A stretch of DNA of 64,000 bases from assembly GCA_030065235.1 (NCBI GenBank), contig JASJDC010000005.1, forward strand, positions 186,001 to 250,000, given 5' to 3'. The notes beneath the pieces are model-generated. The model did no database searches. It worked only from the letters and a program-made list of their open reading frames with translations, and was not told the DNA's origin. The stretch is from Alphaproteobacteria bacterium (GTDB lineage Bacteria; Pseudomonadota; Alphaproteobacteria; UBA8366; Aestuariispiraceae). This document shows positions 21,725-28,221 of the stretch, piece by piece. Position 1 is the first letter of the stretch, and the number at the start of each line of letters is the position of its first letter. A program made the position numbers and the translations under genes.

Positions 21725-22828
21725 ATGTCGAGCTTAGTCGTGGCGGACAGCACGGAACTGTCGACGACCGATGAAGAACAACTGGTCACCATGATGGTGG
21801 ACGGGCAGTTGTTCGGCATCCCGATCCTGAAGGTTCAGGATATCGTCGAGCCGGACCAGATCACCCCGGTGCCTTTGGCGCCCGCCGCGATCGCCGGCGT
21901 TTTGAATTTGCGCGGCCGGATCGTCACTGTGATCGATCTACGCGAGTTGCTGGGCGCGCGGGTGTCCGACGACGAAAAACAGATGAGCGTCACGGTCGAG
22001 CATAAGGGCGATCTCTATACGCTTCTGGTCGATTCAATCGGCGATGTGCGGTCGCTGCGCAAACGCGATTTTGATAAGCCGCCAGCGACCCTGGAAGAGA
22101 ATATGCGCCGTTTATCCTCTGGCATCTTCGGCTTGGAAGACACGCTGCTGGTGGTTTTGGACGTCGATCGCATCCTCGATGAAGAAACCATCATGAAGAG
22201 CCCGCGCCGGACCCGGCGCCGGCGGGTGAAGAAAGCGACAGCGCTGGACATGGGGACGGGGACTGCGACGAAACCGGCGAACGACGAACCGTCACAGGAC
22301 GCGCCGAAACTCGAAGCTGACAATTCAAAAACCCCGGCCGCATCGCGTGATGCGGCGCTGAGCCTGGATGAGGCGCCGGCAAATGACATCGCGGCGAAAC
22401 CGGAAACGCGTCCTGTTGAAGAAACGCCCGTGTCATCCGCCCCCGCCAGCGCGTCCGCCGGCGGCGGTCTGACTGACCTGCTGGGCGGTGCGGCGAAAGC
22501 GAGCGGCCTGATCGACAGCGTATACGACCTGTCCATGGCCGACGCGACGCTGAACCATTTCGCCGAAGGTGAAGACCTCCACGCCGTGAAGGAAGGTTTC
22601 CGCGCCTATTCCCTGGCGGCTTTGGGCGCGTCCGCTGCCGCCAGCGTCGACGATCTGAAAGTAATCCTGGATCTGTTGGTCCGTGAGCAGGGGCTGGACG
22701 ACGATCACTTCATCGCGCTGGCCAAACACGCCAATGAGGTGATGTCAAAAGCGCGCGTCGACGCCGCCGCCTGCCACGCCGTCCTGGAGATCATCGACGC
22801 CCTGCGCAACGCGGTGGTCAAGCATTAG
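21725..22828 (+). CDS. CheW domain fused to a truncated-globin-like domain
   Basis: This 367-residue protein starts with a CheW coupling domain (about 15-155), including FGIPILKVQDIVEPDQITPVP and GVLNLRGRIVTVIDLRELLG, the segments that contact receptors and CheA. A basic patch RRTRRRRVKK (161-170) and an Ala/Pro/Glu-rich linker follow. The C-terminal part (about 247-365) lines up with group I truncated haemoglobins: LGG, then DSVY, then DATLNHFAEGEDL, YSLAALG, GLDDDHF, and a final helix ending LRNAVV. The position where the proximal histidine should be appears to be V319, so haem binding is doubtful. No other chemotaxis gene is nearby. The CheW call is firm; the globin call is pattern recognition. 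Confidence 0.85.
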   Translation: MSSLVVADSTELSTTDEEQLVTMMVDGQLFGIPILKVQDIVEPDQITPVPLAPAAIAGVLNLRGRIVTVIDLRELLGARVSDDEKQMSVTVEHKGDLYTLLVDSIGDVRSLRKRDFDKPPATLEENMRRLSSGIFGLEDTLLVVLDVDRILDEETIMKSPRRTRRRRVKKATALDMGTGTATKPANDEPSQDAPKLEADNSKTPAASRDAALSLDEAPANDIAAKPETRPVEETPVSSAPASASAGGGLTDLLGGAAKASGLIDSVYDLSMADATLNHFAEGEDLHAVKEGFRAYSLAALGASAAASVDDLKVILDLLVREQGLDDDHFIALAKHANEVMSKARVDAAACHAVLEIIDALRNAVVKH

Positions 22829-27036: not shown

Positions 27037-28221
27037 TTGACGGAAACGCCTCTCTCTTCCGATTTCGCCCTCAGCGTCCTGGACTCAATTCAGGACACAG
27101 CGGTCGTGATTGATCGGGAAGGGGTCATCGTGTTGGCGAACGAGCCCTGGCGCGCTTTCGCAGAGTCTAACAGCGACGCCGATTGCCAAGTTCAGGTGGG
27201 TGCAACGACCGGTGTAGGATCGTCCTATTTCCGAGAAATGCGTCCCGAAGCAGGCGACCTGACCGGCGCGGGCGACGCGTTCGCCGGCGTCCGACAAGTG
27301 TTGGCGGGCGCGACGGAGCGGTTCGAGTTGGAATATCCGTGCCACGGGCCAACCGAGCGCCGGTGGTTTCGCATGTCGGCCGTCCCGGTCGCCGGAGAGC
27401 CCGGCTATGTGCTGATCCGTCATACCAATGTTTCGACCTTGCGCTACGCCAAGGAGGAACTGGTTCGGGCTAAGGAAGCGGCGGAGCGCGGCAATCTGGT
27501 GAAGAGCCGTTTTCTGGCCGCCATGAGTCATGAGCTCCGCACGCCGCTCAACGCCATTCTTGGGTTTTCCGAGACGATGATGTTGGGCGCGTTCGGCCCG
27601 ATCGGCGATCCGCGTTATGTAGATCATGCGCGGATCATTCACGATAGCGGCCAACATCTTCTGGCGGTTCTGAACGATGTTCTGGACATGGCGAAAATCG
27701 AAGCTGGGAAGATCGACGTTCATAAGGCCGAGCTGCGGCTGGCCCCGTTGCTCAAGACCTGCGTCGATTCGATGCGCTGCGACGCTGAGGCGCGCGGCCT
27801 GTCTTTCACCATCGACGCCGATCCCGCGCTCACATGTCATGCGGACGCGCGTTTGTTCAAACAGGTCGCGCTCAATCTGATCTCGAATGCTATTAAATTC
27901 AGCCCCAAAGGCGGGACGATCACGGTTGAAGGACGCGCGGCCGAAGACGGATCGGTGTCGGCTTCGTTCTGCGATCAGGGGCCGGGCATCCATCCAGACC
28001 AGATCGATACGGTCTTTCGCGAGTTTGAACAGACCGATCTGGGTCGCGAGGCTGGCGGGGCCGGCTTGGGACTGCCGATATCCGCCAATATCGCGCGCCT
28101 GCATGGCGGCGCCTTGACCGTCCAGAACCGCGTCTCGGGCGGGTTGCGGGCGACCATCACCCTGCCGCCGGCGCAAGACGCAAAGAGCCGCGCCAATAGT
28201 CGGACTGCGTCAGCTCGGTGA
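27037..28221 (+). CDS. Soluble PAS histidine kinase
   Basis: This 394-residue sensor kinase has no membrane segments. A PAS domain (about 12-130) is followed by HisKA with the phospho-acceptor H165 in MSHELRTPLN, then HATPase_c. The HATPase part shows the N box (NLISNAIKFSPKGG), DQGPGIHPDQ and GAGLGLPISANIARLHGG. Translation appears to start at TTG 27037, with a GGAG-like site upstream. No response regulator gene is adjacent, so this is an orphan kinase. It resembles the PleC/DivJ-like HisKA group common in alphaproteobacteria, but the pathway cannot be assigned. Confidence 0.9.
   Translation: MTETPLSSDFALSVLDSIQDTAVVIDREGVIVLANEPWRAFAESNSDADCQVQVGATTGVGSSYFREMRPEAGDLTGAGDAFAGVRQVLAGATERFELEYPCHGPTERRWFRMSAVPVAGEPGYVLIRHTNVSTLRYAKEELVRAKEAAERGNLVKSRFLAAMSHELRTPLNAILGFSETMMLGAFGPIGDPRYVDHARIIHDSGQHLLAVLNDVLDMAKIEAGKIDVHKAELRLAPLLKTCVDSMRCDAEARGLSFTIDADPALTCHADARLFKQVALNLISNAIKFSPKGGTITVEGRAAEDGSVSASFCDQGPGIHPDQIDTVFREFEQTDLGREAGGAGLGLPISANIARLHGGALTVQNRVSGGLRATITLPPAQDAKSRANSRTASAR

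Follow-up and report, generated by a model that had tools for sequence, protein, structure and literature searches.

A CheW coupling protein joined to a group I truncated-globin domain without the proximal haem histidine in the Aestuariispiraceae

The fusion gene and its surroundings

The window (the whole stretch of 64,000 nucleotides analysed here) lies within a contig (C18) of an alphaproteobacterial genome of 4.18 Mb. Two Aestuariispiraceae of the Rhodospirillales, Hwanghaeella grinnelliae and Aestuariispira insulae, are its closest named relatives. On the forward strand, an open reading frame starting with ATG at positions 21725-22828 encodes a protein of 367 amino acids; limits, length and start codon have all been verified. 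The gene is apparently monocistronic. Both flanking genes, an alpha/beta hydrolase gene upstream and a TfoX-like gene downstream, are on the opposite strand, and a sigma-70 promoter scan gave no match. The same single-frame fusion recurs in independent genomes, including those of H. grinnelliae and A. insulae, and is therefore no assembly error. Positions 27037-28221 of the window encode a PAS-HisKA-HATPase sensor histidine kinase, for which no connection to the fusion was seen.

The N-terminal part of the protein is a CheW domain (residues 19-153, positions 21779-22183, forward strand), full-length in that it covers positions 1-136 of the 138 in the PF01584 profile (E=2.1e-32). It is followed by a linker of about 90 residues (157-246, positions 22193-22462), rich in alanine, proline and serine and opened by the basic stretch RRTRRRR, which composition, low identity to Hwanghaeella and an AlphaFold pLDDT below 50 up to residue 247 of the full-length model mark as disordered. 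The remainder (residues 247-367, positions 22463-22825) is the domain of interest here. No Response_reg domain was matched by Pfam in the protein.

The C-terminal domain as a truncated globin

The original prediction, made by reading the sequence, held that CheW is joined here to a fold of the group I truncated haemoglobins (trHb1). The motifs on which it relied are all found in the expected order (LGG at residue 253, DSVY at 264, DATLNHFAEGEDL at 273, YSLAALG at 295, GLDDDHF at 323 and LRNAVV at 360), and sequence profiles, relatives and predicted structure now back the fusion. Pfam gave a Bac_globin match over residues 251-364, but a weak one (E=0.18 with the full protein as query, 0.0099 with just the domain), and the 16.5 bits of the domain, below the curated cut-off of 21 bits, are sub-threshold for a single sequence. 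A phmmer search of PDB sequences with the same single sequence retrieved Chlamydomonas THB1 (3.8e-5), and the following eight matches were all truncated haemoglobins. A profile built from the window domain and those of four relatives raised THB1 (4xdi) to 5.7e-21 and cyanobacterial GlbN to 8.8e-19. TAL-effector chains topped this profile search; they are an artefact of many tiny repeats summed together, no single stretch of which passes. Profile-profile comparison (hhalign) with nine stand-alone alphaproteobacterial trHb1 gave a probability of 99.6% and E=8.5e-24 over 118 columns. Scored with a profile of alphaproteobacterial trHb1 that stand alone, the unshuffled domain reached 48.6 bits and the best of 2000 shuffled versions 9.5; shuffles and profile comparison together rule out chance similarity.

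The structure predicted by AlphaFold2 for the domain from five sequences (pLDDT 92.3, pTM 0.85) points the same way. The best 33 Foldseek matches of the model in the PDB are all truncated globins, mostly of group I, and include 1dlw (TM 0.78/0.81), 4xdi (0.81/0.78), 6cii, 6bme, 1dly and HbN; other globins rank lower. In the full-length model the globin is confident, the linker disordered and the CheW part low, the latter because the alignment is shallow (five sequences only), so that the model supports no inter-domain conclusion. Together these data support the assignment of residues 247-367, some 120 residues with the group I motif order, to the 2-over-2 fold of group I truncated globins. A non-globin helical domain with chance or composition-driven likeness would fit the sub-threshold Pfam score, but is hardly credible against phmmer, profile, profile-profile, shuffle, AlphaFold and Foldseek results and an end-to-end alignment with fusions bearing unmistakable Bac_globin matches (L012 and L019).

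Haem-ligand positions

The residue taking the place of the proximal haem histidine (F8) had been read as Val319. This was off by four: in the domain alignment with reference truncated haemoglobins the F8 column is Leu315 (positions 22667-22669), and Val319, one helical turn later, aligns with a conserved valine of trHb1. Neither residue is histidine, so the absence of the proximal histidine holds. The histidines of the domain are found at residues 278, 286, 328, 335, 351 and 367, none of them near F8. The B10 tyrosine is kept as Tyr267, within the DSVY motif (residues 264-267, positions 22514-22525), and is phenylalanine in both Hwanghaeella proteins. In these as in the window protein the E10 column is Gly/Ala, and F8 is leucine.

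Leucine is unable to ligate iron. The loss of haem ligation, also part of the original prediction, thus has the support of the alignment, and because F8 is Leu315 and no histidine lies near it, the domain is predicted to be free of haem. In principle, a different residue such as His278 or His286 might hold haem, or haem might be bound weakly.

Distribution of the fusion

A match to the fusion is present in 34 of 44 genomes examined in the order, and the fusion is found in most chemotactic members. The translated loci comprise 22 distinct CheW-globin proteins and eight proteins lacking the globin, one of which (L028) is ended by the contig edge. The other seven (L026, L027, L029-L031, L033, L034) are CheW orthologues from the family f3, in which a long, acidic and apparently unstructured tail replaces the globin; the tails hold conserved LMTDLNAYES and RRPVSERWQEVLEEKAR-like motifs. 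As such a tail stands in its place, the globin is dispensable in f3. The H. grinnelliae fusion is 63% identical to the window protein over residues 1-367. Full-length CheW-globin proteins gave no match outside the order in samples of 385 genomes of the class and 399 of the phylum, and no plasmid match covered most of the query.

The F8 residue varies widely among the 22 fused proteins, being histidine in 11, tyrosine in five, leucine in three, and valine, serine or a gap in the remainder. Histidine is found in all eight f2 proteins (among them L032, which lacks the N-terminus) and, within f4, in L012 and L036. Family f1, to which the window belongs, has histidine in one protein (L019), tyrosine in five, leucine in three (the window protein and both from Hwanghaeella), valine in one and serine in one. 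The protein L035 has a gap at F8. Three members of a single genus, g7, carry histidine, serine and tyrosine, respectively. Fusions with F8 histidine can be called outright by Pfam Bac_globin (L012, 3.5e-18; L015, 1.4e-17; L019, 5.8e-12), and so can L025 (3.4e-12), which has tyrosine at F8.

In a tree of CheW domains, all the fusions and the f3 proteins fall in one supported branch (100/99), with plain CheWs outside, and the F8 state changes at least three times. The simplest reading is a single fusion event involving a globin of the haem type, after which the ligand was lost repeatedly and the domain was replaced once; the polarity of these changes is an inference. The coexistence of His-bearing and His-lacking relatives, even within genus g7, offers a ready comparison for the passage from a haem sensor to a haem-less regulatory domain.

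Constraint on the domain

The globin of the window protein aligns to that of H. grinnelliae over 121 columns with no gap, and to that of the second Hwanghaeella with one gap column, at 58-60% identity. The linker reaches 40-45% identity and its alignment has many gaps, and the CheW part is 85-86% identical over residues 1-156; linker and globin thus evolve faster than the CheW part. The pN/pS ratio of the globin is about 0.4, a rough estimate that shows constraint and not its strength, because synonymous sites are near saturation. The stretch best conserved between window and Hwanghaeella, GLDDDHFIALAKHANEVMS (residues 323-341, positions 22691-22747), corresponds to the predicted helix G region.

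Chemotaxis genes of the host

CheW-domain matches in the genome are three, one in the fusion and two within a single CheA. The latter (987 aa, Hpt-H-kinase_dim-HATPase-CheW-CheW-REC) is encoded about 150 kb from the fusion gene. Receptors are represented by 15 PF00015 matches in 14 genes. Apart from the fusion, the genome thus has no stand-alone CheW for its one CheA and its 14 receptors. The picture is similar in about a dozen related genomes, where the single stand-alone CheW is the fusion or its f3 form, accompanied by one such CheA. Additional CheWs are found in the relatives G001, G003, G004 and G006, and CheW is absent altogether from genomes such as G008, G009, G024, G034 and G042. A triple-CheW coupler, with three CheW domains in one open frame of 527 aa adjoining CheA, was observed in another genome (L105, G033:C52).

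Truncated globins within CheA

A profile of the fused globins was used to search 385 alphaproteobacterial genomes, and the matches in long frames turned out to be CheAs. In about nineteen CheAs from some ten families a trHb1 lies between the Hpt and the dimerisation domain, at the position of P2; the loci (L071-L088) come from alphaproteobacterial families other than that of the window. Two of them, L085 (4353-7952) and L071 (2-2620), carry one more globin, which interrupts their first CheW-like domain. On plasmids the CheA globin had as sole match a group 1 truncated haemoglobin of Methylocystis.

The cheW genes adjoining globin-bearing cheA genes are plain (15 tested), and a globin is absent from all 18 CheAs examined in the window's order; in the genomes examined the globin is therefore found on CheW or on CheA, never on both. 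The F8 column of 21 CheA globin domains holds histidine in 11, phenylalanine in five, leucine in one and a gap in four, so that F8 histidine is missing in about half of the copies. All 21 stand-alone trHb1 have F8 histidine, a biased control because these loci are the best matches to a His-rich profile. The globin tree, based on 121 columns, is weakly resolved and is compatible with one origin or with separate origins of the CheW and CheA versions.

CheAs from the same order as the window have a P1-P3 linker of low complexity, wherever both its ends could be located. A short, conserved motif fitting approximately (E/D)LQAAFDNAVYKGPGDP was noticed in this linker in the CheA of the host genome (L040). 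Similar motifs occur in L090-L095, L099, L101-L104, L106 and L107, duplicated in L103 and L104, and are missing from the f2 CheAs L096-L098. They are possibly peptides binding CheY or another partner in place of P2.

Possible role of the globin

CheW lies between receptors and CheA throughout the chemotaxis array. Being the one stand-alone CheW available to a single CheA and 14 receptors, the fusion presumably binds receptors and the P5 domain of CheA in the array; it is homology to CheW that suggests this placement, and any effect on CheA. A globin carried by CheW on about 90 flexible residues would occur at every coupling site. The ancestral fusion may have been a haem-based O2/NO sensor within the CheA-CheW baseplate, where the binding of gas could bias the kinase coupling of all receptors simultaneously; in His-bearing relatives it could do so still, by changing the packing of CheW or CheA. 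In the window's lineage haem binding of the F8 type would have been lost, and the folded domain retained as a haem-independent module of the array. Its partner may be CheA, CheY or some other protein of the array, or else a small molecule lodged in the emptied pocket.

On sequence comparison and modelling we lean, by a little, to this reading, by which the only stand-alone CheW of a single-CheA system has a tail descended from trHb1, ancestrally a haem sensor of O2/NO in the baseplate and retained here for haem-independent regulation or interaction. The original prediction had suggested that the domain was turned into a module for protein interaction or for another ligand. This is plausible, and is strengthened by the repeated loss of F8 histidine while the fold stays, in both CheW and CheA contexts.

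According to the main rival, the haem-less globin is a passive relic that, as a mere folded mass at the end of a flexible tail, would tune array packing or protein stability and sense nothing. The globin-less acidic tails of the f3 relatives, the faster evolution of linker and globin relative to the CheW part and the erratic F8 residue inside genus g7 would all agree with a mere tether. Such a role seems nonetheless unlikely for a domain that aligns to Hwanghaeella over 121 gapless columns at about 60% identity, under constraint far above that on the linker, that gives an intact AlphaFold model and conserves the GLDDDHFIA-AKHANE surface; moreover, the CheA globins show the same pattern of F8 loss with retention of the domain. 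Leucine at F8 in the window and both Hwanghaeella proteins, Gly/Ala at E10 and the lack of histidines near F8 make it improbable that haem is still bound by an unusual ligand, in a sensor of O2, NO or redox state (aerotaxis) like the F8-His relatives. This would be favoured by the retention of Tyr267 at B10, by the presence at F8 of tyrosine, a possible ligand, in several relatives, by the resemblance of relatives with F8 histidine and B10 tyrosine to ordinary haem-binding trHb1, and by the finding that no other Bac_globin or Protoglobin (PF11563) was matched in the host genome.

The data can also be seen in a wider frame. Truncated globins may be a recurrent sensory or regulatory domain of the alphaproteobacterial CheA/CheW core, on CheW in one order and in CheA in about ten other families, serving as haem gas sensors in some lineages and having repeatedly turned into haem-independent regulators in others; this is put forward tentatively, with a chance of being right that falls somewhat short of even. 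In the textbook view, sensing in chemotaxis belongs to the receptors. A recurrent globin in the core, if real, would contradict the view of an array core devoid of a sensor domain of its own, and part of sensing may occur inside the signalling hub, besides the receptors. Placed on the sole stand-alone CheW or in CheA, the globin would let oxygen, NO or another signal act on the output of every receptor.

Comparison with known systems

The N-terminal domain of RsbR, a non-haem globin fold, is an input module of the Bacillus stressosome. The window protein may similarly retain a haem-free globin fold at the input of a large signalling assembly, although the RsbR domain is neither a truncated globin nor part of a chemotaxis array. 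Group I truncated haemoglobins (GlbN, THB1, HbN) share with the fused domain fold, length, motif order and B10 tyrosine, and differ from it in having histidine rather than leucine at F8 and in not being joined to CheW.

CheV is made of a CheW domain and a receiver, and its extra C-terminal domain can tune the coupling of receptors and kinase (PMC12691637). The fusion is likewise a coupling protein with an additional C-terminal domain, and its logic would be comparable to that of the CheV receiver; it differs in bearing a truncated globin where CheV has a phosphorylatable receiver, and in being the sole stand-alone CheW where CheV is an additional coupler. CheAs of the F5 class, known in Rhodospirillum centenum, Azospirillum and Caulobacter, have two CheW domains and a receiver (PMC10782961), a domain order shared by the host CheA and by the globin-bearing CheAs of other families. 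The same 2023 survey of CheA architectures describes CheA as lacking a sensor domain, and its main text contains neither globin nor haem (PMC10782961); the CheAs of other families described above differ in their globin domain.

HemAT, a globin receptor, senses ethanol through its helices and not through its haem (PMC7542364), which sets a precedent for a globin that detects a ligand independently of haem. A Bac_globin-PAS-MCP receptor has been described in Corallococcus coralloides (PMC6194562). As in these globin-coupled sensors, in the fusion a globin domain would feed the chemotaxis pathway; unlike them, the globin is borne by the coupler (in other families by the kinase), is a truncated one of group I, and has lost F8 histidine. 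Sensors of the HemAT type, aerotaxis receptors among them, have an N-terminal Protoglobin with an MCP, cyclase or kinase as output, unlike the C-terminal globin of Bac_globin type found on CheW. A 2026 aerotaxis review, in part of its text, places globins in receptors (PMC13401364), and searches of open papers yielded no account of CheW or CheA bearing a globin. Globin-coupled chemotaxis is therefore known, and its shift from the receptor to the core of the array, here without the haem histidine, is judged new.

Truncated globins were also met in other arrangements. Repeated PAS-like domains come after a trHb1 at L089 (2965-5829), where an MCP signalling region completes what reads as a trHb1-PAS receptor, and after a truncated globin at L045. 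Closely spaced matches to truncated globins, often as pairs or triplets, occur outside the class, as in G557:C219, G507:C14, G616:C275 and many f191 genomes.
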